Shown here: in pieces, positions 13,601-64,000 of the stretch | Numbering within the stretch: position 1 is the first letter of the stretch | Layout: every line of letters begins with the position of its first letter | Origin: Onthophagus taurus | Taxonomy: Eukaryota; Arthropoda; Insecta; Coleoptera; Scarabaeidae | Assembly: GCF_036711975.1 (NCBI RefSeq) | Contig: NC_091971.1 | Span: 4,285,501-4,349,500, forward strand | Direction: 5' to 3' | DNA length: 64,000 bases | Program-made: the position numbers and the translations under genes | The notes under the pieces: model-generated | What the model was told of the DNA's origin: nothing | What the model saw: only the letters and a program-made list of their open reading frames with translations | Database searches by the model: none

Positions 13601-16600
13601 ATCGTAATAATAATCGTTTTATTTTAGGAATTAATGGAATTAGCATCAACAAGGCAACCTTTAAATAAATTTGAAGCCCAAAAAACTAAATTATTAACTT
13701 ATCTATCAAGCGTTTTCTCTGAACATCTTTACGAGCCGACTAAAAATTATTTCCATGAAATATTTTTCTTTTATAATTCCTCTATTGAGCAGCAAATAGT
13801 TGGTACTCATCGAACGGCTTTACACACGGCTCTAAATGATCCGTTTCAATATCTGCAGGTAAAAAATTAATTAAAAAAGAATTGAATTAGATGATTAATT
13901 AATAAAAAATTGTAGTGTGATTGTTGTGAATTAAGACATGACTCTTCAATCGAAAAAACGATGCCTGATATTTGTATAGCATATAAATTACATTTGGAAT
14001 ATGGGAAAATGATTAATTTGTACGATTGGTTGCAAGCATTTGTTTCGGTTGTAAATCCAGTTCATTTGGATGACGCTGAAGCTGATCAACAAATCAGTCC
14101 ACAGTTACAGTAAGTAAAATTGAAGAAATTTATTTATTATTTATACAGTGGACGTCAAAAAGTTTGCAACGCCCAGTTTTTTTTTGTTCCATTGTATTAT
14201 TTAAACTGGTTATCATATTGTGGCGCCTCGGCTTTGATTAATGAAACTGAGGTTGCTTCAGGTCGAGGTTCAGTTAAAACATTAAAAAATAGTGACCCCG
14301 ACGTGATTTCTTGACACTACTATTTTCCTTTACTGTTTTATTTGCAAGTTGTTTATGTGGCGCTCTACCTCTTGTAGATTTCAGATATCAAAAAATAATT
14401 TCCACGAAAGAAACTTAACTACAAATATCGTTTCTAAGAAACTTTTGACGGTTATTTAGGTATTTAAACTGAATTGATGATGTCTTTTACATGTTGATAA
14501 AGCCCAAAATCAAAATTTATAGAAACTGGAAGCTAACTTATTCTCTGTAAATAATCTTTATTCATACGGCGCACTTTGTAATTATTGCCTCCATCTACTT
14601 TCATAGTTTCTACAAGTGAATGGATGGTGATTTTGCGAAAAGCCCGATGCCGGTTATCCGGCATATCTATCCGGCCATTATGGTTATAATTTCTGGTACA
14701 TTTCTGAAGTGATACCCTACATTGCCACATTATTGCGATATTTGAATAAAAATGAAATTAATAAGAAAGCTGATAAGATATGTCAACTTATTTGGATCCA
14801 AGATACAAAATGAACTTTTTTGATGCTGATTTAACTAATGAAGCAACTCTAAAAAGAGGATACTTTAATAAATAATTGCGATATTTCCACAAGGATCCTT
14901 CAAGAAATAAATTTTATAGCGAATTTTGAAAGTTATCATTGAAAATTTTATCAAAACTTCAAATATTGTTTTCACAAAAACTAAAAGTTATTTTTCAAAA
15001 CGGGTTGATTCATTGGAAAGAGGACGCTTTCATTAACACTTTGGGAAATTTTCATACTCATATTCCAAGAAATGGATTTTATACGAATTTTTAAAATTTA
15101 ATCGGCGAAAATTGCAAAATTCGAAAAAATTGTCGATCATTTCAAAAATTTATTTCTCAACAAGTGAAAGTGATTTTTCAAAACGGCTTTTTGCATTAAA
15201 AAGAGGATACTTTAATTAATAATTGGTGATATTTCCACAAGGATCCTTCAAGAAATTAATTTTATAGCGAATTTTGAAAATTATCGATGAAATTGCAACA
15301 TTGAAAATTTTATTAAAACTTCAAATATTGTTTTCTCAAAAACTAAAAGTTATTTTTCAAAACGTGTTGGCTCATTGGAAAGAGGACACTTTTATTAACA
15401 CTTTGGGAAATTTTCATACTCATATTCCAAGAAATGGATTTTATACGAATTTTTAAAATTTAATCGGCGAAAATTGCAAAATTCGAAAAAATTTCGATCA
15501 TTTCAAAAATTTATTTCTCAAGAATTGAAAGTGATTTTTCAAAACGGCTTTTTGCATTAAAAAGAGGATACTTTAATTAATAATTGGTGATATTTCCACA
15601 AGGATCCTTAAAGAAATTAATTTTATAGCGAATTTTGAAAATTATCGATGAAAATTGCTACATCGAAAATTTTATCAAAACTTCAAATATTGTTTTCTCA
15701 AAAACTAAAAGTTATTTTTCAAAACGGGTTGATTCATTGGAAAGAGGACGCTTTCATTAACACTTTGGGAGATTTTCATACTCATATTCCAAGAACTGGA
15801 TTTTATACGAATTTTTTAAATTTAATCGGCAAAATTGCAAAATTCGAAAAAATTTCGATCATTTCAAAAATTTTTTTCTCAAGAATTGAAAGTAATTTTT
15901 TAAAACGGCTTTTTGCATTAAAAAGAGGATACTTTAATTAATAATTGGTGATATTTCCTGAAGGATCCTTCAAGAAATTAATTTTATAGCGAATTTTGAA
16001 AATTATCGATGAAAATTGCTACATCGAAAATTTTATCAAAATTTCAAATATTGTTTTCTCAAAAACTAAAAGCTATTTTTCAAAGCGGGTTGGTTCATTG
16101 GAAAGAAGACACTCTTATTAACACTTTGGGAAATTGTCATACTCATATTCCAAGAAATGGATTTTATACGAATTTTTAAAACTTAATCGGCGAAAATAGC
16201 AAAATTCGATTATTTCAAAAATTTATTTCTCAACAACTAAAAGTGATTTTTCAAAACTGCTTTTTGTATTAAAAAGAGGATACTTTAATTAATAATCAAA
16301 AGTGATAATAGCGATAGTTCTGTTAGTAATGAATGTGATGATGAATTACAAGCGAAGAGAAGGAAACTAAACGAAACTGCAACAAGAGATTTTATATATA
16401 GTATTGGGATTGTTACAATGAGGTTGCTAATGATAAATAAAGTTGTATTCAATGAAAAAAGTCCTATTGGGGTTGAACTTGATTATTATCTGCAGTGTTC
16501 AACACCTAAAAGAGATATTAATTCCTGTGATTGGTAGAGTACTAAGTAGAAAATGGCCGAATACCGGATAGTTGCCGGATATCCGTTCCACCACTAGTTT

Positions 16601-24463: not shown

Positions 24464-27400
24464 ATGGCTCAGCATATTTTGTCGGCCGTCGAGTCTGAAA
24501 TTTCTTCGGTTAAATCCAAGGGGGACTCCACCGAACGGGATTTATGCGTTACATTGGATGATCGAGAACTTTGGGTGCGGTTTCAGTGTTTTACCAACGA
24601 GATGATTGTTACAAAAAGTGGAAGGTAAGTTATTATTTAATTCTATATTTATATACTTTTAACAAGATGATGTTAAGTAATTAATTATACCAACAAAAAA
24701 ATTTAACATATAGTGTTCGCCAAAAAGATAGCAACATTCTCTTTTTTTTTTTTTGATTTTATTGCACCTTTGCTTAATCAGATAAAATTGTACACTTCTT
24801 ATTGTAACTTAAATCGATGCCTCTTGATTGAACCTCAGCCGCAAGCGATCTCGGCTTAATTAATCAAAAGATCTACAACTTCAGTTGATACAGCCGAGGC
24901 GCTACAATATGATGATTAGTTTCATGTTAATGAATTTCACTTAAGATGCAACTGTTACTTCTAGTTTTAATTGTTATACAGCACTAGATCAAGAACTAGA
25001 ATTATTTTAGTTCTTCTCAAATGTTTCTAGGTCTAATGTTAGTTCTAGTGACAATGCAAGTGCAAAACTAGAACTAACACTATACCTAGAACTAGAATCA
25101 TTTGGGTTTAGTCGCACGTCTCTAAAGACGGCTAGTTAGTCCTGCATAGTAGCAGTGCTAGTATAAAACTAGAGCTAATACTATACCTAGAACTAGAATC
25201 ATTCGGGTTTAGCCGTCTTTAGAGACGTGCGGCTAAACCCCAATGATTCTAGTTCTAGGTTTAGTGTTAGTTCTAGTGATAGTGCAACACTAGACCGAGA
25301 ACTAGAAACATTCGGATTTGGCCGTACGTCTCTCAAAATGGCTAAACCCAAATGACTCCAGTTCTAGGTCTAATGTTAGTTCTAGTGATAATGCAAGTGC
25401 AAAACTAGAACTGACACTATACCTAGAACTAGAATCATTCGGGTTTAGCCGTCTTTAGAGACGTGCGGCTAAACCCCAATGATTTTAGTTCTAGGTTTAG
25501 TGTTAGTTCTAGTGATAGTGCAACATTAGACCGAGAACTAGAAACATTCGGATCTGGCCGTACGTCTCTCAAAATGGCTAAACCCAAATGACTCCAGTTC
25601 TAGGTCTAATGTTAGTTCTAGTGACAATGCAAGTGCAAAACTAGAACTGACACTATACCTAGAACTAGAATCATTCGGGTTTAGCCGCACGTCTCTAAAG
25701 ACGGCTAAACCCAAATGATTCTAGTTCTAGGTATAATGTTAGTCCTGCATAGTAACAGTGCTAGTATAAAACTAGAACCAACACTATACCTAGAACTAGA
25801 ATCATTCGGGTTTAGCCGTCTTTAGAGACGTGCGGCTAAACCCCAATGATTCTAGTTCTAGGTTTAGTGTTAGTTCTAGTGATAGTGCAACACTAGACCG
25901 AGAACTAGAAACATTCGGATTTGGCCGTACGTCTCTCAAAATGGCTAAACTCAAATGACTCCAGTTCTAGGTCTAATGTTAGTTCTAGTGACAATGCAAG
26001 TGCAAAACTAGAACTGACACTATACCTAGAACTAGAATCATTCGGGTTTAGCCGTCTTTAGAGACGTGCGGCTAAACCCAAATGATTCTAGTTCTAGGTA
26101 TAATGTTAGTCCTGCATAGTAACAGTGCTAGTATAAAACTAGAACCAACACTATACCTAGAACTAGAATCATTCGGGTTTAGCCGTCTTTAGAGACGTGC
26201 GGCTAAACCCAAATGATTCTAGTTTTAGGTCTAGTGTTAGTTCTAGTGATAGTGCAATACTAGAATTAACACTAGACCTAGTTCTAGGTATAGTGTTAGT
26301 TCTAGTTTTGCACTTGCATTGTCACTAGAACTAACACTAAACCTAGAACTAGAATAGTGCAATACTAGAATTAACACTAGACCTAGTTCTAGGTATAGTG
26401 TTAGTTCTAGTTTTGCACTTGCATTGTCACTAGAACTAACACTAAACCTAGAACTAGAATCATTGGGGTTTAGCCGCACGTCTCTAAAGACGGCTAAACC
26501 CGAATGATTCTAGTTCCAGGTCTTGTGTTAGTTCTAGTTTTATTTGTTATTCAGTGCTAAATTGTTGTATATTTTTATTGAACCAAAAGTAGAAGCTGTT
26601 TGAAATTTCGTACATTAAAATTACTCATTTCCTTCCTCGTATTAATCCGACTTTACTTTACTGGGTATAAATAAATTGATTCCGAATTAAATGCGGCAAA
26701 AACCTCCCATTTTAAATGAACCTGTATCTAAAATACTTAAGATGTAACTGTTAGTTCTAGTTTTAATTGTTGTACAGCGCTAGACCAAGAGGTAGAATCA
26801 TTGAGGTTTAGTCGTCTTAAGAGACATACGGCTAAATCCAAATATTTCTAGTTCTAATGTTAGTTCTAGTGACAGTGCAAGTGTAAAACTAGCCATATTT
26901 AGAGACGTGCGAAACCAAAGAAAAGAAGGTGTTGCTATCTTTTTGGCGGACACTGTATAATATTAATAATTTAAAGATTTGTATTCTAAAGATTTTATAT
27001 AAAGCCAATAATTTCTAAATAACGAGAGCTTTTGTAGTAAAAGAATCCACAACAATACTTTTAAAAAGATGAAATTTTAGTAAGAAACGCGGTTAAGGTT
27101 AACTATTTAAAGAAACAGGTAAGTTTTGAAAAGAAACCTTTACCCTATTTTTATGATGGGTTATTGGTACATCCTCAATAAAGTGTTATAAACGTTGACA
27201 ATGTTTTCAAGAATATCCAACAAAAAAATACTGATTGAGGTTCGAACCTTATTATTCCTTTTTATGACACCAACCAAAACAAATTTTCGTTCTTTTAGTG
27301 CTTAAAAATTTTAATTTTCGATTGTAACAACTTAAAAATTATTCTTTTTTCCTTGTCGTTTTACCCACGCGTGAAATAAAGTTTTATTACTTTATTAATT

Positions 27401-35200: not shown

Positions 35201-38200
35201 ATGAAATTATGTTTCATTCATATTTCTATAGAAATAACGTTTAAGTTATATTTGATTAATTAAAAATATATATTTTACAAATATAGAATATAAAAATTAT
35301 TTCAAAGAATGAATTTTGTTTCCATATTTATCGATTTAGTGGGTTTTTATTCTGTGAATATAATCGTATTATAATATAATCGTTTTAAATTTGCTGCAAA
35401 AAGCAATGCGATTACGTAGTCTTAAACACTTTATAAACAATAATTAACTAACACAAGGGTATTCTAATTAGTTTGAACTTTAAATAACTAACAAGCGTGT
35501 AGAAAAAAGTAAATTATTTCCCTTAGAATATTTAAATTGATTTATTTTTAATTGATTGTAATTTATTTTTAGCCAATTTTTTGGACGATTTAAGTTTTAT
35601 TAAGCGAAATGTATCTCATAGATATCTTCTATTTTGATAACTCATGGTTATTCTTCTATTAGATTTCTTGGAACTCTTCGTTTAAACATATTATGATTCC
35701 TGGTAACCAATTGTTTATACCTGGAAGGAAGTTTTGATTTCGATTTCCTATAAAGTTTTGCAATCATTAAACAAGTTGCTACGATTATGCAATTATCTTA
35801 TTGTATTAAACCCATAACGTATAATATATGTAAATAACAAAGCTTATAAACGTATAATTATTACGAATAAGTAGTGTCTGAGATACATTAATTACAATGG
35901 GTTTCATTTTATGGATTTACCCAAACTTGATAGAATGCGGGCGCAACAATTAAAAACTTTGTCGCACCCGTTACGTTGCTATGTCACACCCGTTACAAAA
36001 TTACACTATCCGTACGTGCTATCCAATGTTTTATCGATATAACAATTGTTATGCCTCTTTCGCAAGAGCACCTCCGCATAAGCAAGCGATATCATATATT
36101 TTTCATAATGATGTAACCCAAAGTTGCTTCTGGTCGAGGTGCAATATTATGTTCTATCAATATAAGAACTCTAATGCCTCGCCCGCAAGCGACCTCGGCT
36201 TAAAAAAGTGATATCATATATTTTTCATAATAATGTAACCCAAAGTTGCTTCTGGCTGAGGTGCAATATTATGTTCTATCGATATAAGAACTCTAATGCC
36301 TCGGCCGCGAGCGACCTCGGCTTAAGAATGCGATATCATATATTTTTCAAAATGAGATAAGCCGAGGTCATTTATGGCCGAGGCGCTACATTACGTGCTA
36401 TCCAATGTTCTATTAATATAACAACTCTAATGCCTCGGCCGCAAGCGACCTCGGCTTAAGAAAGCGATAACATATATTTTTTATGAGGAAAGCCGAGGTT
36501 GCTTATGGCCGAGGCGCTATATTTTGTGCTATCTAATGTTTTATTGATATAACAACTCTAATGCCTCGGCCGCAAGCGACCTCGGCTTAAGAAAGCGATA
36601 ACATATATTTTTTATGAGGAAAGCCGAGGTTGCTTATGGTCGAGGCGCTATATTTTGTGCTATCTAATGTTTTATTGATATAACGACTCTAATGCCTCGG
36701 CCGCAAGCGACCTCGGCTTAAGAAAGCGATATCATATATTTTTTATGAGGTAAGCCGAGGCGCTACATTTTGTGCTATCTAATATTCTATTGATGTAACA
36801 ACTCTAATGCCTCGGCCGCAAGCGACCTCGGCTTAAGAAAGCGATATCATATATTTTTTATGAGGTAAGCCGAGGCGCTACATTTTGTGCTATCTACTAT
36901 TCTATTGATATAACAACTCTAATGCCTCGGCCGCAAGCGACCTCGGCTTAAGAAAGCGATATTATGTATTTTTTATAATGAGGTAAGCCGAGGTTGCTTA
37001 TGGCCGAGGCGCTACATTTTGTGCTATCTAATGTTCTATTGATATAACAACTCTAATGCCTCGGCCGCAAGCGACCTCGGTTTAAGAAAGCGATAACATA
37101 TATTTTTCATAATGAGGTAAGCTGAGGTTGCTTATGGCCGAGGTGCTACATTATGTGCTATCCAATGTTCAATTAATATAACAACTCTAATGCCTCGGCC
37201 GCAACCAACCTCGGTAAGCTGAGGTTGCTCGCGACTGAGGAGCTACAATATGTGCTGTTTAATATTCTATCGATATGATTGCAATTATAATGCCTCGGCC
37301 GCAAGCGACCTCGGCTTGAGCAATCAGACCACAAGCAATTCAAAACAACAGGAAATGCTTGAATTCTAAAGTAACTCCACAACTTTGAAAGATACCAATA
37401 TAAAAAAAATCAACTGATAAGTAATCTAATTTCAAAACAAGGCAACCCAATACCAAAGCAATCCATTTATTGGTTTCCATTACTTTCCAAACGAACTGAA
37501 AGACAAAGACAACCATCTCCAAATCATGCCAACAGTACTCCAAAAGCAACGCAACCTTAAAGCAAGCTAACCTTGTAGCTAACGTTCTTGGTTGAACAAT
37601 CGCAAAGTGGCCCAGTCTAAAGCAATTCAACAACATGGTAACCAATTTCCGCATTTTCATCAAATACAAAGTAACTCTATTCCAAAATATGCCATCTACA
37701 AACTCGAGCATCTCCGAGGCAAACCGATCCAATCTCAAAGCAATTTAATCACCAACTAACCTAACACCTCAAATAACCCAAACCCAAGTACAAGTAACTC
37801 ATCTCCAAAGCAATTCAAGAGAATTTCTTGGTTGGTGGTATTTAACTTCACTTTGTTAATGAGCTTAGGAATTTGTTACATTATAATTTATTATAACAAA
37901 CTTTTTAATAATTAAATTTTATTGTAAAATATTTTTCTTTAAATTTAGGCTGAACTTATCCACATGCGAGCAGAATTAGTAGAATCAAAATCAAAACGTG
38001 AAATATTAGAACAAGAACTGCACAATTTATTGCTACAATTGCACACAGCACAATTAACACAATTGCCAGCACTGAATAATGGACATTACAAACAAGAACC
38101 TGACGTTGATAATATCAAGAAAAAAATTGAAGATGAGTTGAAGAAAAGTCCTAGTCATTCTGTTAAAAGTGAGTTTATCAAAAAATTATTATTATTTTTT

Positions 38201-47516: not shown

Positions 47517-50500
47517 AAGTAAAATCTTGATATAACGGATTAATATGGAGGAGGAAATGAATAATTTTGATGTACGGAATTTCAAACAACTTCTACTTGT
47601 GGTTCAATAAAAATATACAACAATTTAGCACTAAACAAATAACACTAGAACTAGAAATATTCGGGTTTAGCCGTGCGTCTAAAGACGGCTAAACCCGAAT
47701 GATTCTAGTTTTAAGCCTTGGGTTAGTTCTAGTGATAGCTCTAGTGTAAAACTAGAACTAATACTAGAACTAGAAACATTCGGGTTTAGCCGCACGTCTT
47801 TCAAGACGGCTAAACCCGAATGATTCTAATTCTAGCTCTTGTGTTAGTTCTTATGATAGTGTCAAACTAGAACTAACACTAGACCTAGAACTAGAACATT
47901 CGGGTTTAGCCGCACGTCTTTCAAGATGGCTAAACCCAAATGACTCCAGTCTGACGACGCACGGCTAAACTTTCTAGTTCCAGGTCTAGTGTTAGTTCTA
48001 GTTTTATTTGTTATTCAGCGCTAGATTGTATATTTTTATTGAAGTAGTTGAAAGGTTAAATATTAGAAAAATATGTATATTAGATTATATAGTAGAACTA
48101 GAATCATTCGGGTTTACCCGTCTTTAGAGACGTTTGGCTAAACCAGAATGATACTAGTTTTAGGTTCACCAACTGTCAACGTTTGCAAACGGAGACCAAA
48201 CGGTTGGCAACATTTCTCGTGAACGCAATGCTAACTTCAAACGTGTTTGGTAAACGGCCGCCATTTTATCAATCGTATGATTTTTCCGTTAGCAATCGCA
48301 AACTGTGTTTGGTGTTTGTGTCATCTTAAATTTAAAATCAACAAACAAGAATGGCAGAAGCCCGAAATTATTTACATATTTAATGGGTTAGTGTACACTA
48401 TCTTTGAAAATGAAGAAATTCATGGTAAATTGAGCAGTATGTACCTATAAATTAATTAAAATTGTAAATCAATGTCATTAAAGCGCCATCTGTTGTTATC
48501 AAACCATATGTCTATAGAAAAATTGGCCGTTCACCAAATCACCAACGCAATCGTAACCCGTTTGCGTTTCCCAACGTAAACGGAATTCTCTGGTGAACGT
48601 GCCCAGTGCTAGTGTAAAACTAGAACTAACACTAGACCTAGAACTAGAATGTTTCGGCTGAAGACGCATGGCTAAACCTATTAATGTCATCCTAACGTTT
48701 AAACGTCTTTTTGACGTTTAAAAACCACAACACATGTCATATCCCTAAACTGGTACCAACCTAAGTTTATGGAAATCTTTTAATGAATATCGAATATTTC
48801 ATACTAGTTTTTTTATAACTTTTGATTTATAGTAATATATTTCGCTAATTTTAGTATTTCTGTAAGATTTTTTATATTACGTATGATTTTTGAAATCTAG
48901 ATTTTTAACGATATTGACGTTTAATTGCCAAATTGACGTTTAAAAGTTAAATAATTAAATCGTAAAGTTATTAAACTTAAAATTTATTATAAGAACTTAG
49001 ACGCACGGCTAAACCCGAAACTTTCTAGTTCCTCAAAACTAGTATCATTCTGGTTTAGCCACACGTCTCTAAAGACGGCTAAACCGGAATGATTCTAGTT
49101 CTAGATCTTGCGTTAGTTCTTGTACATTGTAAAACTAGAACTAATACTAGACCTAGAACTAGAAAGTTTCGGCCTAAGATGCTTGGCTAAACCTACAAAT
49201 GTCATCTTAACGTTTAAACGTCATTTTGACGTTTAAAAACCACAACATATGTCATATCCCTAAAATGGTACCAACCTAAGTTTATAGAAAATCTTTTGAT
49301 GAATATCGAATATTTCATACCAGTTTTTTTATAACTTTTTTGATTTATAGTAATATATTTCGCTAATTTTAGTATGTCCATAAGATTTTTTATATTAAAT
49401 TAACTGATTTTTGAGTTTTTTAAAATTTAGATTTTTAACGATATTGACGTTTAATTGTCAAATTGACGTTTAAAAGTGAAATAACTAAATCGTAAAGTTA
49501 TTAAACTTAAAATTTATTATAAGAAATTAGACGCACGACCAAACCCGAAACTTTCTAGTTCTAGGTCTAGTGTTAGTTCTAGTTTTACACTGTAACAAGA
49601 ACTAACACAAGATCTAGAACTAGAATCATTCGGGTTTAGCCGTCTTTAGAGACGTGTGGCTAAACCAGAATGATACTAGTTTTGAGGTCTTGTGTTAGTT
49701 CTAGTAACAGTGCTAGTGTAATACTAGACCTAGAACTAGAAAGTTTCGGCCTAAGATGCAAGGCTAAACCTACAAATGTCATCTTAACGTTTAAACGTCA
49801 TTTTGACGTTTAAAAACCACAACATATGTCATATCCCTAAAATGGTACCAACCTAAGTTTATAGAAAATCTTTTGATGAATATCGAATATTTCATACCAG
49901 TTTTTTTTATAACTTTTTTGATTTATAGTAATATATTTCGCTAATTTTAGTATTTCCATAAGATTTTTTATATTAAATTAACTGATTTTTGAGTTTTTTG
50001 AAATTTAGATTTTTAACGATATTGACGTTTAATTGTCAAATTGACGTTTAAAAGTCAAATAACTAAATCGTAAAGTTATTAAACTTAAAATTTATTATAA
50101 GAAATTAGACGCACGGCTAAACTCGAAACTTTCTAGTTCTAGGTGTAGTGTTAGTTCTAGTTTTACAATGTAATAAGAACTAACACAAGACCTAGAACTG
50201 GAATCATTTGGGTTTAGCCGTCTTGAGAGACGTGCGGCTAAACCCGAATGATTCTAGTTCTAGATCTTGTGTTAGTTCTAGTGATAGTGAAATACTAGAA
50301 CTACTAACACAAGACCTAGTACTAGAATCATTCGGGTTCAGCCGTCTTGAAAGACGTGCGGCTAAATCCGAATGTTTCTAGTTCTCGGTCTAGTGTTAGT
50401 TCTAGTATTGCACTATCACTAGAACTAACACAAGACCTAGAACTGGAATCATTTGGGTTTAGCCGTCTTGAGAGACGTGCGGCTAAACCCGAATGATTCT

Positions 50501-50873
50501 AGTTCTAGATCTTGTGTTAGTTCTAGTGATAGTGCTAGTGGAATACTAACATTTCGAGAACTAGAATCATTTGGGTTTAGCCGTCTTGAAAGACGTGTGG
50601 CTAAACCCAAATGTTTCTAGTTCTCGATCTTTTAGTATTCCACTAGAACTCACACATAAGACCTAGACCTGAAATCATTCGGGTTTAGCTGTCTTAAGAG
50701 GTGTGGCTAAACCCTAATATTTCTAGCTCTAGGTCTAACGTTAATTCTAGTTTTACACTAGCACTGTTACTATGTAGAACTAACACTATAACATCCGAAT
50801 GTTTTTAGTTAGTATATAACAAGTAATATCCAAAGTCCATTCTAACAAGATCTGTTGTATCAAAGTTTTACTG
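47517..50873. mobile_element. TIR element (AGTAAAATCTTGATATAAC ends) with palindromic tandem interior
   Basis: The left end AAGTAAAATCTTGATATAAC matches the inverted right end CAGTAAAACTTTGATACAAC, with TA on both sides. Inside are many copies of the CTAGAACTAGAATCATTCGG/TTTAGCCGTC...GACGTGCGGCTAAA palindrome. There are also three long copies of a unit with ATGTCATCTTAACGTTTAAA...TTGACGTTTAAAAACCACAA and ATGGTACCAACCTAAGTTTA (about 48680-49010, 49195-49540, 49770-50120). No transposase is detected. A non-repeat insertion at about 48160-48600 has no recognised content. Confidence 0.8.
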
Positions 50874-50875
50874 TA

Positions 50876-53125
50876 TTGGAACATTGAAAAAAATTCTACC
50901 TCAACTAAAATTATTAACCACAATAAAAAAGTATTAACTACTTTTAAATCACCTCTAATCACTTAAAGCTTTTAAAACAAGAAAAAGTAAATCAAATCTG
51001 ATATATTACAATACTTTTTTCTAGGATAGAGGAATAGAAAGTCTTAAAACGCAGAAGATACATGTGATATTTATTTAGTTTAGAATCTCTCCGGGGAAAT
51101 TTTGACGAGAAATACACACGAGCTTTTTTTGTAGATGAAAATCAAAAAAAGAAAAAGTTTAAAGTAAACAAATTACTAATAGAACGAGGAATAATTAAAA
51201 AAAAAGCTCCATGATATATAAAAAAAGCTCTATTTAATTACAGATTTCGTATTTTTCTTCCATCATTTTAAGTTATTATCACGTTTGTAACGAGACTAAA
51301 AGAGACTCCTTATTTATTATTACGTACAAATTACAATTTACAAAAAAGGAAAACAAATTAAAAGAAAATTCTTAGTCGAAACTAGCAACGTTCACCACAC
51401 ACGAAAAATGCCTTCTTTATACGAAAGATTTAACGTGGAATAAAATCTATATTGTATGCTTTAGCTTTTTTACAGTATTAGTGAGACGTGTTAAATTACT
51501 ATTACGTATATTACGAAAAGTAAATGAAAATTCGATCAGTTTCGTGTCGAACTCTAATCTTTCTCTTAGCATAGCTAAATACTATTTACAAAAAATGAAA
51601 CGGCGCTGCTCAAAATGAAACGCGATTTCTCATAATCAAAATAAAAAAAAAGGGAAACTAACATACGATTATTTCCAGGTTATTTATTATAGTATTACAC
51701 TATTATTCAATCGTCATGTTATCGTTGGAACATATCTGTGACTTAATAAATCTTTGCTGCTCTGATATTTTTTTGTATTTTATTCTAATTTCCTATTCTT
51801 ACAAACATATTTATATCTAACAGAAAATGGACAAGAAGAAAAGGTGAGTTCTATTCTTAGAATAGGACAACGAAACATCAGAAGCGTGAATTTATCAAGT
51901 ATTTCAAAGTCCGCAAGTGAAGGTAGTATTAAAGATGTGGGAAGATTATTTAGTGCTGGCAGAAATCCAAAAACTGTAGACATGAAACTAAATACTATCA
52001 AAGCTCCTTATAAAAGACTTAATATCGATAGCAGAAAACTAGATATTATATATTGCATATTCATACTGAAACATGATACTGTTATTACAAGACTAAATAC
52101 TTCTTGCAGAAACGACTTCTTGTTTGCAGAACTAGATCTTGCTGATACAAGTCTAGATACTGCTAATGGAATACTACATCCTCTTTATAAAAATTTATTC
52201 GATATATATATGATAAGATTAAGGTTGAAAGATAAAGATGGAATGTCGTGTATGGGAGGGGATACACTTCAACATATTTTGCTTGAGAGTAGTGAGCCGA
52301 ATTGAATGAAAGATGAGTTAGTAATGAGTTTGGATGACTGATAGGAATATAGCAAGTTAATGTAATAAAGGTAAATTTCGCTTTTAAATACATTTATTAG
52401 GGCAGGTTAATACAATATCGATACAATGAGTAAATTTTAAATAGCATCTGACGTTTCTTTTTTTAATATCGAATACTGACACGTGCGCACGAAGCGTTTA
52501 ATACAAAAGAGAGGAAATAAAAAAAAATATTACCTAAGACATTGTTTTGCGTTAAAAAAAAAATTACAATAATTATATGAGATTCCATTGATCTGATAAT
52601 TAAAAAAAATACACCAACGAGTGCGCTCTCTAATGGAAATATATCGATTTATCACAATATGCGAGTATCATCATAATAATTAGCGAGATTGAGATTATAG
52701 TTTTTTTTTCTTTAAATATTATAATAATAGTTTTATAGCACCACAACGCTCGTTTATGATTTATTTTAAGTCACACGAATAGTACTTGTTACAAAAACGT
52801 ACCATAAGCGAACTTAAGGCAGTTATTATTTCCTGAATACGTTTACTTATTTGTTTAATAATTCTTTTAAAATATTCTAAGCTACTACTTAAATAGTAAA
52901 TATAATAATAATAAATTATATACAATAAATACGTTTATAATAAATAATATATATACAGTTTCTTTGGTTTTCGGTATAAATTTAATTTTATTCGGATTCT
53001 ATTTATTTCTGGTTATGTTGGTTATCAAATTATAAATTAATATTCATTAATAACATTGACCAAAATAAATATTAAAGATTTTTCCTAGAAAAAAAAATCA
53101 AAAATTACATTATTTATTAAATTAG
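50876..53125. other. Intergenic region with an inverted copy of the CAGTATCTAG minisatellite (about 51930-52200)
   Basis: Most is AT-rich and unannotated. The part at about 51930-52200 repeats units such as AAGACTAAATACTTCTTGCAGAA and AAGTCTAGATACTGCTAATGG, the reverse complement of the minisatellite at 4466 and 57925. The open frame through it is a by-product of the repeat. 52440-53110 holds runs of T/A and ATAATAATA with no gene. It could contain 3' UTR of a leftward transcript, but nothing proves that. Confidence 0.5.
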
Positions 53126-56100
53126 AGTAAAACCTCGATATAACAGATAAAATATTTTTAAGTCATACTATTAATATATATGACATGGAACCGAGGTACT
53201 AGAGTTATGTTATTTGAGTTAATCATGTTATATAATAGAGCTCTGCTGCCGAGGCATTTGCACCAATACTCAAAGAACAGGCAGTAAATGTTATTTTTTA
53301 CAATGATATATCATTTGGAACCGAGGCAACTATGCTGCCGAGGCAGTAGAGTTTGTATACATTTAAAAAGAGTTTAAAACTGTTATTCGAGTTAATCATG
53401 TTATATAATAGCCTCAGCAGCTCTGCTATTGAGGCAGTAGTGCCATCAGTTCAAAAATAAACAATAAACCATAATTTTCAACAAGAACATGTTACATTAG
53501 AAGCCGAGGCATTTGCACCAATACTCAAAGAACAGGCAGTAAATGTTATTTTTTACAATGATATATCATTTGGAACCGAGGCAGTAGAGTTTGTATACAT
53601 TTAAAAAGAGTTTAAAACTGTTATTCGAGTTAATCATGTTATATAATAGCCTCAGCAGCTCTGCTATTGAGGCAGTAGCGCCATCAGTTCAAAAATAAAC
53701 AATAAACTTTAATTTCAAACAAGAACGTGTTATATTAGTAACCGAGGCAGCTCTGCTGCCGAGGCATTTGCACTAATACTCGAAGAACAGGCAGTAAATG
53801 TTATCTTTTACAACAATATATCATTTGGAACCGAGGCAGCAAAGCTGCTGAGGTAGTAGATACATTAAAAAAGATTTTAAAACTGTTATTCGAGTTAATC
53901 ATGTTATACAGTAGCATTAGCAGCTCTGCTATTGAGGCAGTAGCTCCATCAGTTCAAAAATAAACAATTAACCTTAATTTTCAACAAGAACGTGTTATGT
54001 TAGAAACCGAGGCAGCTTTGCTGCCGAGGCATTTGCACCAATACTCGAAGAACAGGCAGTAAATGTTATTTTTTACAACGATATATCATTTGGAACCGAG
54101 GCAGAAAAGCTGCTGAGGTAGTAGATACATTAAAAAAGATTTTAAAACTGTTATTCGAGTTAATCATGTTATACAGTAGTATTAGCAGCTCTGCTATTGA
54201 GGCAGTAGCTCCATCAGTTCAAAAATAAACAATAAACCTTAATTTCAAACAAGAACGTGTTATATTAGAAACCGAGGCAGCTCTGCTGCCGAGGCATTTG
54301 CACTAATACTCGAAGAACAGGCAGTAAATGTTATCTTTTACAACGATATATCATTTGGAACCGAGGCAGCAAAGCTGCTGAGGTAATAGATACATTAAAA
54401 AAGATTTTAAAACTGTTATTCGAGTTAATCATGTTATATAATAGCCTCAGCAACTCTGCTGTTGAGGAACTAGCGCCATCACTACAAAAATAAACAATAA
54501 ACCTTAATTTCAAACAGGAACGTGTTATATTAGAAACCGAGGTAGCTCTGCTGCCGAGGCATTTGCACCAATACTCGAAGAACAGGCAGTAAATGTTATT
54601 TTTTACAACGATATATCATTTAGAACCGAGGCAGAAAAGCTGCCGAGGTAGTAGATACATTAAAAAAGATTTTAAAACTGTTATTCGAGTTAATCATGTT
54701 ATATAATAGCCTCAGCAACTCTGCTGTTGAGGAACTAGCGCCATCACTACAAAAATAAACAATAAACCTTAATTTTCAACAAGAACGTGTTACATTAGAA
54801 GCCGAGGCAGCTCTGCTGCCGAGGCATTTGCACCAATACTCAAAGAACAGGCAGTAAATGTTATTTTTTACAATGATATATCATTTGGAACCGAGGCAGC
54901 TATGCTGCCGAGGCAGTAGAGTTTGTATACATTTAAAAAGAGTTTAAAACTGTTATTCGAGTTAATCATGTTATATAATAGCCTCAGCAGCTCTGCTATT
55001 GAGGCAGTAGCGCCATCAGTTCAAAAATAAACAATAAACCTTAATTTTCAACAAGAACGTGTTATATTAGAAACCGAGGCAGCTCTGCTGCTGAGGCATT
55101 TGCACCAATACTCGAAGAACAGGCAGTAAATGTTATCTTTTACAACGATATATCATTTGGAACCGAGGCAGAAAAGCTGCCGAGGTAGTAGATACATTAA
55201 AAAAGATTTTAAAACTGTTATTCGAGTTAATCATGTTATATAATAGCCTCAGCAACTCTGCTGTTGAGGAACTAGCGCCATCACTACAAAAATAAACAAT
55301 AAACCTTAATTTCAAACAGGAACGTGTTATATTAGAAACCGAGGCAGCTCTGCTGCCGAGGCATTTGCACCAATACTCGAAGAACAGGCAGTAAATGTTA
55401 TGTTTTACAACGATATATCATTTGGAACCGAGGCAGAAAAGCTGCCGAGGTAGTAGATACATTAAAAAAGATTTTAAAACTGTTATTCGAGTTAATCATC
55501 TTATATAATAGCCTCAGCAACTCTGCTGTTGAGGAACTAGCGCCATTATTACAAAAATAAACAATAAACCTTAATTTCAAACAGGAACGTGTTATATTAG
55601 AAACCGAGGCAGCTCTGCTGCCGAGGCATTTGCACCAATACTCGAAGAACAGGCAGTAAATGTTATGTTTTACAACGATATATCATTTGGAACCGAGGCA
55701 GAAAAGCTGCCGAGGTAGTAGATACATTAAAAAAGATTTTAAAACTGTTATTCGAGTTAATCATCTTATATAATAGCCTCAGCAACTCTGCTGTTGAGGA
55801 ACTAGCGCCATCACTACAAAAATAAACAATAAACCTTAATTTCAAACAGGAACGTGTTATATTAGAAACCGAGGCAGCTCTGCTGCCGAGGCATTTGCAC
55901 CAATACTCGAAGAACAGGCAGTAAATGTTATGTTTTACAACGATATATCATTTGGAACCGAGGCAGAAAAGCTGCCGAGGTAGTAGATACATTAAAAAAG
56001 ATTTTAAAACTGTTATTCCAGTTAATCATGTTATATAATAGCCTCAGCAACTCTGCTGTTGAGGAACTAGCGCCATCACTACAAAAATAAACAATAAACC

Positions 56101-56700
56101 TTAATTTCAAACAGGAACGTGTTATATTAGAAACCGAGGCAGCTCTGCTGCCGAGGCATTTGCACCAATACTCGAAGAACAGGCAGTAAATGTTATGTTT
56201 TACAACGATATATCATTTGGAACCGAGGCAGAAAAGCTGCCGAGGTAGTAGATACATTAAAAAAGATTTTAAAACTGTTATTCGAGTTAATCATCTTATA
56301 TAATAGCCTCAGCAACTCTGCTGTTGAGGAACTAGCGCCATCACTACAAAAATAAACAATAAACCTTAATTTCAAACAGGAACGTGTTATATTAGAAACC
56401 GAGGCAGCTCTGCTGCCGAGGCATTTGCACCAATACTCGAAGAACAGGCAGTAAATGTTATTTTTTACACTGATAAATCATTTGGAACCGAGGCAGCTCT
56501 GCTGCCGAGGCATTTGCACCAATACTCGAAGAATAGGCTGTAAATGTTTAAACAACATTTAAATAACATTTAAAAAGGCATTAAAACTGTTTCTCTTCTT
56601 CTTTCTAAGTCTAAGTCGAGTATTAGTTCTTTTTTTAGTTAGTATTCAATGCTAGATTGTTGTATATATTTTTTTAATCAGTTATATCGAGGTTTTACTG
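53126..56700. mobile_element. TIR element (AGTAAAACCTCGATATAAC ends) carrying an array of 265-bp repeats
   Basis: GAGTAAAACCTCGATATAAC at 53126 is inverted as GTTATATCGAGGTTTTACTG ending 56700, with TA flanks. The interior is about 12 tandem units. The last units are exactly 265 bp apart (55133, 55398, 55663, 55928, 56193 for one landmark) and nearly identical, while units toward the left are more diverged and partly deleted. Each unit has the hairpin GGCAGCTCTGCTGCC in GAGGCAGCTCTGCTGCCGAG, a second CAGCAACTCTGCTGTTGAGG, and AT-rich spacers. The subterminal piece near 56640 (TCAATGCTAGATTGTTGTAT) is shared with 48010 and 26545. Confidence 0.9.
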
Positions 56701-59170: not shown

Positions 59171-62100
59171 AACAAATACAGGGTTGAGTTCAAAAAGTAT
59201 TATCTCAAAAACGAATTGAGATTTTCAAGTACGGTTTTTTCTATGAAAAAGGGGACACCTTCTTTTATAAATCACCAAAGTTTCATCAAGATATCTTAAG
59301 AATTCGATTTTTCACAATTTTTTGAAAACAATAGTTAAAAGTTATCAACATCATAAAGCGATTAAAATTTTGGTTGCGTTCAAAAAGTATTATCTCAAAA
59401 ACGAATTGAGATTTTCAAGTACGGTTTTTTCTATGAAAAAGGGGACACCTCCCTCTATAAATCACCAACGTTTCATAGAGATATCTTAAGAATTGGATTT
59501 TTCACGATTTTTTAAAAATGATAGTTAAAAGTTCACAACATCATAAAGCGATTAAAATTTGGGTTGGATTCAAACCTTAGTATCTCAAAAACGAATTGAG
59601 ATTTTTAAATACGGGTTTTTCTATGAAAAAGGAGACACCTCCCTCTATAAATCACCAACCTTTCATCAAGATATCTTAAGAATTCGATTTTTTATGATTT
59701 TTTAAAAGTGATTTAAGAGTTGTATATTTCATAAATCGATTTGGATTCAAAAATGATTATCTCAGAAACTAGTATAGATTTTCAAAAACGGCTTTCTTCA
59801 TTAAAAAGCATACACCTCTCTCTATAAATCGATATCATTTCATTAAGATATCTTAAGAATTAGATTTTTTACGATTTTTTAAAATTGATTGCAAAAAGTT
59901 GTCAATTCAAATTTGGGTTGGGTTCAAAACTTATTATCTCAAAAACGAATTGAAATTTTCAAGTACGGTTTTTTCTATGAAAAAGGAGACACCTTCCTCT
60001 ATAAATCACCAATGTTTCATCAAGATATCTTAAGAATTCGATTTTTTATGATTTTTTAAAAGTGATTGTAAAAGTTGTAAATTTCATAAATCGATTAAAA
60101 TTCGGGTTGGATTCAAAAATGATTATCTCAGAAACTAATATAGATTTTCAAAAACGGCCTTCTTCATTAAAAAGTATACACTTCCCTCTATAAATCGATA
60201 TCATTTCATCAAGATATCTTAAGAATTCGATTTTTTACGATTTTTTTTAAATTGATTGCAAAAAGTTATCAAGTCAAATTTGGGTTGGGTTCAAAAATTA
60301 TTATCTCAAAAACGAAATGAAATTTTCAAGCACGGTTTTATCCATGAAAAAGTGCATACCTCCCCTTACAAATCACCAACGTTTCATGACGATATCTTAA
60401 GAATTCGATTTTTTACGATTTTTTAAAAATATTAATTAAACGTTGGCAATATCATAAAGCGATTATAATTTGGGTTGGGTTCAAAACTTATTATCTCAAA
60501 AACGAATTGAGATTTTCAAGTACGGTTTTTTCTATGAAAAAGAAGACACCTTCCTCTATAAATCACCAATGTTTCATCAAGATATCTTAAGAATTCGATT
60601 TTTTACGATTTTTTAAAAGTGATTGTAAAAGTTGTAAATGTCATAAATCGATTAAAATTTGGGTTGGGTTCAAAACTTATTATCTCAAAAACGAATTGAG
60701 ATTTTCAAGTACGGTTTTTTCTATGAAAAAGGAGACACCTTCCTCTATAAATCACCGAAGTTTCATCAAGATATCTTAAGAATTCGATTTTTTATGATTT
60801 TTTAAAAGTGATTGTAAAAGTTGTAAATTTCATAAATCGATTAAAATTCGGGTTGGATTCAAAAATGATTATCTCAGAAACTAAGATAGATTTTCAAAAA
60901 CGGCTTTCTTCATTAAAAAGTATACACCTCCCTTTATAAATTGATATCATTTCATCAAGATATCTTAAGAATTAGATTTGTTACGATTTTTTAAAATTGA
61001 TTGCAAAAAGTTGCCAATTCAAATTTGGGTTGGGTTCAAAAATTATTATCTCAAAAACGAATTGAGATTTTCAAGTACGGTTTTTTCTATGAAAAAGGAG
61101 ACACCTTCCTCTATAAATCACCAATGTTTCATCAAGATATCTTAAGAATTCGATTTGTTATGATTTTTTAAAAGTGATTGTAAAAGTTGTAAATTTCATA
61201 AATCGATTAAAATTCGCGTTGGATTCAAAAATGATTATCTCAGAAACTAATATATATTTTCAAAAACGGCTTTCTTTATTAAAAAGTAGACACCTCGCTC
61301 TATAAATCGATATCGTTTCATCAAGATATTTTAAGAATTCAATTTTTTACGATTTTTTAAAATTGATTGCAAAAAGTTGTCAATTCAAATTTGGGTTGAG
61401 TTCAAAACTTATTATGTCAAAAACGAATTGAGATTTTCAAGTACGGTTTTTTCTATGAAAAAGGAGACACCTTCCTCTATAAATCACTAATGTTTCATCA
61501 ATATATCTTAAGAATACGATTTTTTATGATGTTTTAAAAGTGATTGTAAAAGTTGTAAATTTCATAAATCGATTAAAATTCGAGTTGGATTCAAAAATGA
61601 TTATCTCAGAAATTAATATAGATTTTCAAAAACGGCTTTCTTCATTAAAAAGTATACACCTCCCTCTACAAATCAATATCATTTCATCAAGATATCTTAA
61701 GAATTCGATTTTTTACGATTTTTTAAAAATTGATTGCAAAAAGTTGTCAATTCAAATTTGGGTTGGGTTCAAAAATTATTATCTCAAAAACGAATTGCGA
61801 TTTTCAAGTACGGTTTTTTCTATGAAAAAGGAGACACCTTCCTCTATAAATCACCAATGTTTCATCAAGATATCTTAAGAATTCGATTTTTTATGATTTT
61901 TTAAAAGTGATTGTAAAAGTTGTAAATTTCATAAATCGATTAAAATTCGGGTTGGATTCAAAAATGATTATCTCAGAAACTAATATAGATTTTCAAAAAT
62001 GGCTTTCTTTATTAAAAAGTAGACACCTCCCTCTATAAATCAATATCATTTCATCGAGATATCTTAAGAATTCGATTTTTTACGATTTTTTTAAAAATTG

Positions 62101-63870
62101 ATTGCAAAAAGTTGTCAATTCAAATTTGGGTTGGGTTCAAACCTTATTATCTCAAAAACGAATTGAAATTTTCAAGTACGGTTTTTTCTATGAAAAAGGA
62201 GACACCTTCCTCTATAAATCACCAATGTTTCATCAAGATATCTTAAGAATTCGATTTTTTACGATTTTTAAAATTGATTGCAAAAAGTTGTCAATTCAAA
62301 TTTGGGTTGGGTTCAAAAATTATTATCTCAAAAACGAATTGAGATTTTCAAGTACGGTTTTTTCTATGAAAAAGGAGACACCTTCCTCTATAAATCACCA
62401 ATGTTTCATCAAGATATCTTAAGAATTCGATTTTTTATGATTTTTTAAAAGTGATTGTAAAAGTTGTAAATTTCATAAATCGATTAAAATTTGGGTTGGA
62501 TTCAAAAATGATTATCTCAGAAACTAATATAGATTTTCAAAAACGGCCTTCTTCATTAAAAAGTATACACTTCCCTCTATAAATCGATATCATTTCATCA
62601 AGATATCTTAAGAATTCGATTTTTTAAAATTGATTGCAAAAAGTTGTCAATTCAAATTTGGGTTGGGTTCAAAAATTATTATCTCAAAAACGAATTGATA
62701 TTTTCAAATACGGTTTTTTCTATGAAAAAGGAGACACCTTCCTCTATAAATCACCAATGTTTCATCAAGATATCTTAAGAATTCGATTTTTTACGATTTT
62801 TTAAAAGTGATTGTAAAAGTTGTAAATTTCATAAATCGATTAAAATTTGGGTTGGGTTCAAAAATGATTATCTCAGAAACTAATATAGATTTTCAAAAAC
62901 GGCCTTCTTCATTAAAAAGTATACACTTCCCTCTATAAATCGATATCATTTCATCAAGATATCTTAAGAATTCGATTTTTTAAAATTGATTGCAAAAAGT
63001 TGTCAATTCAAATTTGGGTTGGGTTCAAAAATTATTATCTCAAAAACGAATTGATATTTTCAAATACGGTTTTTTCTATGAAAAAGGAGACACCTTCCTC
63101 TATAAATCACCAATGTTTCATCAAGATATCTTAAGAATTCGATTTTTTATGATTTTTTAAAAGTGATTGTAAAAGTTGTAAATTTCATAAATCGATTAAA
63201 ATTTGGGTTGGATTCAAAAATGATTATCTCAGAAACTAATATAGATTTTCAAAAACGGCCTTCTTCATTAAAAAGTATACACTTCCCTCTATAAATCGAT
63301 ATCATTTCATCAAGATATCTTAAGAATTCGATTTTTTAAAATTGATTGCAAAAAGTTGTCAATTCAAATTTGGGTTGGGTTCAAAAATTATTATCTCAAA
63401 AACGAATTGATATTTTCAAATACGGTTTTTTCTATGAAAAAGGAGACACCTTCCTCTATAAATCACCAATGTTTCATCAAGATATCTTAAGAATTCGATT
63501 TTTTACGATTTTTTAAAAGTGATTGTAAAAGTTGTAAATTTCATAAATCGATTAAAATTTGGGTTGGGTTCAAAACTTATTATCTCAAAAACGAATTGAG
63601 ATTTTCAAGTACGGTTTTTTCTATGAAAAAGGAGACACCTTCCTCTATAAATCACCGAAGTTTCATCAAGATATCTTAAGAATTCGATTTCTTATGATTT
63701 TTTAAAAGTGATTGTAAAATTCATAAATCGATTAAAATTCGGGTTGGATTCAAAAATGATTATCTCAAAAACTAACTAAAATTTTCAAGTACAGTTTTTC
63801 TATGAAAACCCCTCCATCTATATCGTCAACGTTTCATCAAGATATCTTAAGAGTTTGATTTTTTACGATT
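59171..63870. repeat. Two-subunit tandem array of about 180/355 bp in the Vein-like gene intron
   Basis: Subunit A: TATCTCAAAAACGAATTGAG...CTATGAAAAAGGAGACACC...CTTAAGAATTCGA. Subunit B: TATCTCAGAAACTAATATAG...TCATTAAAAAGTATACAC. Both end with ATCAAGATATCTTAAGAATT and a TTTTTTACGATTTTTTAAAA spacer. The array starts A-A-A (about 59199, 59388, 59578), then mostly alternates A-B. From about 62300 to 63550 the A-B dimers are nearly identical, about 355 bp apart (landmarks near 62300, 62655, 63010, 63366). It ends degenerate near 63870; 63871-64000 is AT-rich. Occasional open frames through the array are not genes. Confidence 0.92.
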
Positions 63871-64000
63871 TTTTAATAGTTGCAACAAATTATCATCTTT
63901 CTAAAGTATAAATAATATTATATAAAATATATATTGGACTCTTAGTTTTATAAATTCGAGAGAGGGTTAAATTGGGTTCAAATTGATTTAATAATAAAAA

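Follow-up and report, generated by a model that had tools for sequence, protein, structure and literature searches.

Unrelated satellite arrays in the shells of a putative pogo-type transposon family of Onthophagus taurus

The entry of satellites into gene-rich DNA is still debated. The stretch of Onthophagus taurus DNA analysed here (64,000 nucleotides of contig NC_091971.1, positions 4,285,501 to 4,349,500, hereafter the window) contains two neighbouring transposable elements that share related terminal inverted repeats (TIRs) and hold different tandem interiors. The original prediction, made from the letters of the window alone, took the common shell for a vehicle that captures and expands unrelated tandem repeats and spreads them as satellite seeds. 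Since the shell is fixed and the arrays vary over hundreds of copies, the family permits a copy-by-copy test of whether arrays are captured, inserted or carried, and the first counts favour one-off acquisition over carriage. We consider it probable that the family is non-autonomous and of the pogo type, and that resident satellite DNA occasionally takes the place of its interior, the core of which is palindromic.

Two elements with common ends

The features of the two elements, in window coordinates, are the following.

47517..50873, plus strand: element 1, putative non-autonomous pogo-type element, 3357 bp, A end left, B end right, TA outside both
47517..47536, plus strand: TIR of end A, element 1, 3 mismatches to the consensus
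47613..47629, minus strand: subterminal block GCTAAATTGTTGTATAT in end A of element 1
47640..47943, no strand: CTAG hairpin array (the family's usual interior), 121-bp period, 2.5 copies, element 1
49076..50289, no strand: 578-bp composite repeat, 2.1 copies, a ~338-bp module alternating with CTAG hairpins, element 1
50107..50760, no strand: CTAG hairpin array, 121-bp period, 5.5 copies, element 1
50854..50873, minus strand: TIR of end B, element 1, 3 mismatches
53125..56700, minus strand: element 2, of the same family as element 1, 3576 bp, B end left, A end right, TA outside both
53125..53144, plus strand: TIR of end B, element 2, 1 mismatch
53503..56510, plus strand: 265-bp satellite array, 11.4 copies, replacing the usual CTAG interior, element 2
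56651..56667, plus strand: subterminal block GCTAGATTGTTGTATAT of end A, element 2
56681..56700, minus strand: TIR of end A, element 2, 0 mismatches

At up to 3 mismatches, the TIR consensus CAGTAAAACCTCGATATAAC matches the 64-kb window exactly four times, at the four claimed ends; 0.01 matches are expected by chance, and four were reached in 0 of 100 shuffles. These shuffles, together with control patterns that gave zero matches genome-wide, rule out a chance similarity of the TIRs. TA stands directly outside all four ends. The subterminal block occurs at 26556 (plus strand), 47613 (minus) and 56651 (plus), with 1, 1 and 0 mismatches of 17, where the chance mean is 0.30 and three matches were reached by no shuffle; the CTAGATTGTTGTATAT block of the original prediction is part of end A. 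The related termini and the common subterminal block of the two elements are thereby confirmed, as are the predicted coordinates 47517-50873 and the right end at 56700; the left end of element 2 lies at 53125, not at 53126.

An alignment of 30 exact-TIR loci with the four window ends distinguishes two kinds of end, A and B, which are unlike each other inside the TIR. End A reads TIR-GGATTAATACGGGGAA..., followed by CAATAAAAATATACAACAATCTAGCGCTGAATAAC, and end B reads TIR-GGACTTCGGATATAACGGACAAATATTTTT..., so that the two window elements lie in opposite orientations, element 1 from A to B and element 2 from B to A. The interior of element 1 consists of CTAG/121-bp arrays and the 578-bp composite repeat, that of element 2 of the 265-bp array, and the CTAG and 265-bp units have no blastn similarity at E<=1e-3, in agreement with the different tandem interiors that had been predicted.

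A duplicated end in the byn intron

The original prediction, from which the gene name byn is taken, placed a third remnant of the same end in byn intron 1. A copy is present there:

26547..26734, minus strand: inverted duplicate of the A end of element 1 with ~70 bp of outer flank, TIR internally deleted

It aligns with the A end of element 1 at 82% over 222 columns, including ~70 bp outside the TIR. A genome search with this stretch gave 44 matches, and among the best 40 of the 129 candidates, which were scored, the outer flank proper was matched only in element 1 and in the byn-intron copy. Since the copy has the outer flank of element 1, its sequence identifies it as a local inverted duplication of that element's end rather than a third independent element, and an independent insertion is ruled out. 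The remnant is thus real, and its independence is not.

In the same intron, the CTAG array is flanked by an inverted repeat of another kind, TATAGTGTTCGCCAAAAAGATAGCAACA / TACAGTGTCCGCCAAAAAGATAGCAACA (window 24709-26957), so that a second TIR shell surrounds a remnant of the pogo-type shell.

Copies across the genome

The genome-wide TIR search that had been proposed as a check was run on the 290.8-Mb genome. The 22-mer TIR TACAGTAAAACCTCGATATAAC at <=2 mismatches gave 902 forward and 913 reverse matches, 1815 sites in all (reversed control 0), and the 34-base A end at <=3 mismatches gave 288+323 = 611 matches (control 0). A longer A-end query (193 bases, TIR and TA included) retrieved ten loci, with a TIR (<=4 mismatches) and TA outside in 9 of 10, one of these being the query's own locus (L072); L080 is without a TIR, and L074 has an extra TIR match with TC.

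Ten complete shells were obtained: the two window elements, L013, L014, L017, L026, L035, L037, L073 and C6:19726191-19730280. They are 251 to 4874 bp long, and, on the proposed check for TA duplications, TA is found at both ends in 7 of the 10; the left TIR of L073 is damaged. Six of them were retrieved by an exact TACAGT end, and their unselected partner end carries TA in 4 of 6.

Superfamily and transposase

A search for DDE_1 transposases yielded 1691 first-look candidates, of which 150 were scored and six loci read. TIRs of the TACAGTAGAGCCCCGATTATCC type with TA were found in L066, L067 and L070, and of the TACAGTGGAACCTCGATTATCC type in L071; in L068 and L069 a TIR scan found no such TIRs with TA. 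The three loci that were domain-scanned (L071, L069, L066) each encode DDE_1 with a Tc5 helix-turn-helix (HTH) domain, and L069 and L066 also carry CENP-B_N, the CENP-B HTH domain. The family TIR has 14 of 20 positions in common with L071 and 13 of 20 with L066; among three TIRs compared, positions 17-19 differ in all and position 16 in two. The background for TA plus a TIR at <=6 mismatches is 1 in 49,111 bp of other loci.

This likeness of TIR and TA target to DDE_1 elements of the same genome, together with the lack of a transposase match outside the six source loci among the 97 loci and the window, indicates that the family is of the pogo/Tigger type (Tc1/mariner superfamily) and non-autonomous as far as read. 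The shells share the TA target and a related TIR with L066, L067, L070 and L071, and differ in that those pogo/Tigger elements carry a transposase gene whereas the shell family, in the copies read, has none. The original prediction had asked for a pogo-like transposase with an identical TIR; the six DDE_1 loci read include none, and four of them have related TIRs and TA. Miniature inverted-repeat transposable elements (MITEs) are typically short and homogeneous in length; the complete shells span too wide a range of lengths for that term, and "non-autonomous derivatives" is the better name. Helentrons and their HINE derivatives are not known to have TIRs with a TA target-site duplication, so the TIRs and TA of the shells rule out membership there. 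Foldback elements, with their long TIRs of tandem repeats, are likewise excluded: the inverted repeat is only ~20-25 bp, and within it the A and B ends are not alike.

Among the listed DDE_1 and TIR places, only two loose neighbourhoods were seen by eye, one between C3:11390655 and an A end at C3:11396235 (~5 kb), the other between C1:16300302 and a TIR at C1:16306906 (~6 kb).

The usual interior

Interiors were classified in 30 exact-TIR loci of contig C1, which were taken from the top of the list without regard to content, using 1.5-kb stretches on the inner and outer side of the TIR. The CTAG repeat is present in 26 of 30 inner stretches and in none of the 30 outer ones. Of the 30 inner stretches, 12 contain arrays with a period of >=100 bp (nine CTAG-type by their units, three other), against 0 of 30 outer stretches; the three others are a 370-bp (L013), a 363-bp (L016) and a 143-bp (L019) array. 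The CTAG core is a near-perfect palindrome, often in tandem at ~121-131 bp, and strong hairpins are predicted for three CTAG stretches (z -7.7, -13.4 and -9.4), but not for the 265-bp stretch (z -0.7). Because CTAG lies inside most of these copies and outside none, the hairpins are the usual interior of the family and not captured cargo.

A CTAG array on C7 near 563 kb was rejected as a further shell, the flanks read there containing no TIR at <=5 mismatches.

Unrelated arrays in complete shells

Three complete shells carry arrays unrelated to CTAG and to one another, and in all three very little of the usual interior is left. Besides element 2 (265 bp), these are C6:19726191-19730280 (4090 bp, a 190-bp array, TA at both ends), in which CTAG-region remnants adjoin the array on both sides by eye, and L013, which is 4874 bp long and has 12.6 copies of a 370-bp unit, 0 and 3 mismatches in its two TIRs, TA on the left and AC on the right. 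L073 contains a short 51-bp repeat of 2.4 copies. No partner TIR was found for L016, so its 363-bp array is not counted as lying inside a shell, and the 143-bp repeat of L019 is treated likewise. It should be noted that L013 and the C6 shell were completed for the sake of their arrays and that an A-end match led to L073; no frequency can be drawn from these three.

By blastn at E<=1e-3, none of the 190-, 370-, 265- and 361-bp units and the CTAG unit resembles another; the full set of units examined yields only three similar pairs, namely 134 with 265 (39 bp), CTAG with the 578-bp composite (32 bp), and 361 with the 366-bp array of the window. Given three complete shells with unrelated arrays, the description of one shell with different tandem interiors is right, and the interiors are not always the same. 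The capture and expansion of unrelated repeats proposed by the original prediction may apply to the 265-, 190- and 370-bp arrays; it does not extend to CTAG.

Over 39 bp, the 134-bp array of the window (36271-37214) matches the 265-bp unit at 82% (E 7.6e-5).

Junctions and free satellites

If arrays were carried by transposition, the junction between array and shell should recur. Junction searches covered both sides of the 265-bp array and the A side of the 190- and 370-bp arrays (the 190-bp query begins inside the shell, past the TIR), and in each the best 39-40 of 268-759 candidates were scored. Among these, no second copy was found of the left (75 matches) or right (92 matches) junction of the 265-bp array, of the A-side junction of the 190-bp array (matches listed, at least 217) or of the left, A-side junction of the 370-bp array (130 matches); because only the best candidates were scored, this negative is incomplete. 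The other places match either a shell end or the satellite. In the 370-bp search, C1:4941405 (L019; query 9-77) overruns the start of the array by ~25 bases and C7:11144606 (query 5-57) by ~5 bases; L019, when read, contains CTAG and the 143-bp repeat, not the 370-bp satellite.

The same satellites also occur outside shells. The 265-type satellite is free at 8 places (12 pieces), the 190-bp satellite at C7:19191629-19195731 and C10:6351197-6353503, the latter adjoining an alpha-amylase-like gene by eye, and the 370-bp satellite at C1:2024902-2030502. Further 370-bp arrays, free or in a shell, lie at C10, C15 and C3. The 18 border pieces of free arrays (265-type, 190-bp of C7 and C10, 370-bp of C1) contain no TIR at <=5 mismatches, and at E<=1e-3 neither end A nor end B matches any of them; positive controls matched in 4 of 4. 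The eight 265-type places are thus rejected as shells of this family (TIR threshold 5 mismatches of 23); TIR matches with 6-8 mismatches at L052 (one, with TA), L053, L057 and L059 are taken as background. With no second junction copy found among the candidates scored and satellites present without a shell, a vehicle that spreads satellite seeds is not supported; each non-CTAG array looks as if it had been acquired once, and not as cargo that the transposon has spread.

Scenarios for the origin of the arrays

These data present several potential scenarios.

1. Resident satellite DNA would replace the palindromic core of individual copies. In the reading that we favour, a DDE_1 transposase of the genome presumably moves the family in trans. 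The palindromic core may break, or an excision gap may be repaired incompletely, which is the likely route; both ends would survive the loss of the core, repair would copy or join resident satellite DNA into the gap, the direction that we infer being from satellite to shell, and the acquired satellite would then expand by unequal exchange.

Several observations weigh against this. CTAG remnants flank the array on both sides in the 190-bp shell alone; element 2 has them on the A side only, and they were not seen at the left end of L013. At L016 and L019, the 363-bp array and the 143-bp repeat respectively lie behind a single end, and the inner 1.5-kb stretches that gave the interior counts may overrun the far end of short copies. 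The right end of L013 is followed by AC and that of L026 by AT instead of TA. When five loci were extended to 6.6-10.9 kb, a partner TIR (<=6 mismatches of 23) appeared in two (L013, L014) and none at L011, L016 and L024; many copies may therefore be truncated or have a decayed end. As to the transposase, the exact family TIR is on none of the six DDE_1 loci read, and the six pogo transposases match only their own six loci among the 97 loci and the window.

2. Mobile satellite arrays may insert anywhere, and some land in shells. Short arrays, for example as circular DNA, would here be the mobile partner and the shells abundant, passive landing sites, a scenario that we hold to be possible and still unlikely. 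It agrees with the presence of the same satellites at places without any shell of the family, with the abundance of the family, which makes some chance insertions expected, and with the 190-bp shell, where remnants of the CTAG region border the array on either side, which would fit insertion with loss. It fits poorly with the distribution of arrays of period >=100 bp, inner 12 of 30 versus outer 0 of 30, although the non-CTAG part of this difference (3 versus 0) includes one proven complete shell and is too small to decide. The loss of nearly all the usual interior in the three complete array shells also speaks against it.

3. Tandem-repeat modules may be exchanged between several unrelated transposon shells. 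A pool of such modules, with palindromic cores as swap sites, is a doubtful proposition that three observations bring to mind. Element 2 shares the 265-type unit with a shell that has a second kind of TIR (TACAGTGTTCGC.AAAAAG; L060:776-1277); CTAG hairpins are found in the pogo-type shell as well as between TIRs of this same second kind in the byn intron, where the nested A-end remnant may have brought them; and the 361/363-bp satellite occurs in window 14650-16590 and behind the pogo-type end of L016, the far end of which was not found.

The places concerned have further features. The element at L060:776-1277 (C5) is ~500 bp long; its ends are of the TACAGTGTTCGCTAAAAAGT type, with 1 and 3 mismatches of 19, TA stands outside them, and it includes about one 265-type unit. 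The 361-bp array of window 14650-16590 lies between inverted CCGG.TATCCGG motifs, hAT-like by look only, and recurs with its left edge behind the pogo-type end in L016 at 89%.

4. Shells with satellites may transpose and seed arrays at new places. This is the scenario of the original prediction, and we regard it as improbable. Whole arrays do lie in complete shells with TA at both ends (element 2, C6:19726191-19730280), the CTAG repeat is carried by 26 of 30 copies and by extrapolation by hundreds, and the composite of CTAG and 338-bp module recurs across its internal boundary at several other places. Against it, the searches for the 265-, 190- and 370-bp junctions found no second copy among the candidates scored, and neither end A nor end B was seen beside the free satellites at the borders read.

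5. Satellites may be born and expanded in shells, the free arrays being old shells with decayed ends. This model, that of miDNA4 (below), is a poor candidate: the divergence of the free relatives (265-type mostly 65-77% to the shell copy, with some short stretches closer to it; for the 190-bp satellite 85-87% at C7 and C10, one edge piece having 81%) would give time for loss of ends, but 0 of 18 border pieces match end A or B, and 190-type relatives (~70%) lie on many contigs, a spread hard to explain by a single shell family.

Comparison with known systems

Parts of this arrangement are already described, namely unrelated arrays in related shells and, reportedly, a tandem repeat captured by a Tc1/mariner MITE. 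According to PMC7492417, the Cg_HINE elements of Crassostrea gigas are non-autonomous Helentrons with related flanks, and in group 2 their central satellite-like arrays are completely unrelated between elements, as in the pogo-type shells. The shells are TIR/TA elements, whereas Cg_HINE are Helentrons; moreover, the same text has each Cg_HINE dispersed genome-wide with its repeats, whereas no second non-CTAG junction of the pogo-type shells was found among the candidates scored.

The miDNA4 element of Xenopus tropicalis (Scalvenzi and Pollet) is a Tc1/mariner MITE, a TIR element with a satellite, as told in PMC12628747 and PMC9659126, and its authors reportedly suggest capture of a pre-existing tandem repeat (as told in PMC12628747). 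It resembles the present family in its superfamily and in the satellite between TIRs, seen also in element 2, C6:19726191-19730280 and L013. In these accounts miDNA4 has one satellite, whereas the pogo-type family has several unrelated arrays and a palindromic usual interior. Likewise, PMC4079207 describes Tetris, a foldback element of Drosophila virilis, as non-autonomous with internal ~220-bp tandem repeats related to satellite arrays. It is similar in being a non-autonomous TIR element with internal tandem repeats; in Tetris the repeats are located within long TIRs, from which they are believed to have arisen (PMC4079207), whereas the pogo-type shells have short TIRs and arrays unrelated to these. 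A pogo-TIR shell with several satellites was not found among the listed titles and abstract openings of the open-licence literature, and what looks new here is the combination of a pogo-type shell, a palindrome as the usual interior and satellite arrays that, to date, appear single.

Other repeats of the window

Within element 1, a segment at window 48160-48605, bounded by ...TTCACCA... / ...TGGTGAA..., resembles by eye a nested small transposon. The ~338-bp module (window 49160-49530) has many matches on the same contig at C6:1.2-4.3 Mb and at C3:23-28 Mb, with C11 also named; it is accompanied by CTAG units in places, and a repeat spacing of ~970 bp is seen at C6:1250-1255.5 kb. Two more large satellite arrays, at 1-2713 and 59181-63880, with periods of 348 and 356-366 bp, bound the window.

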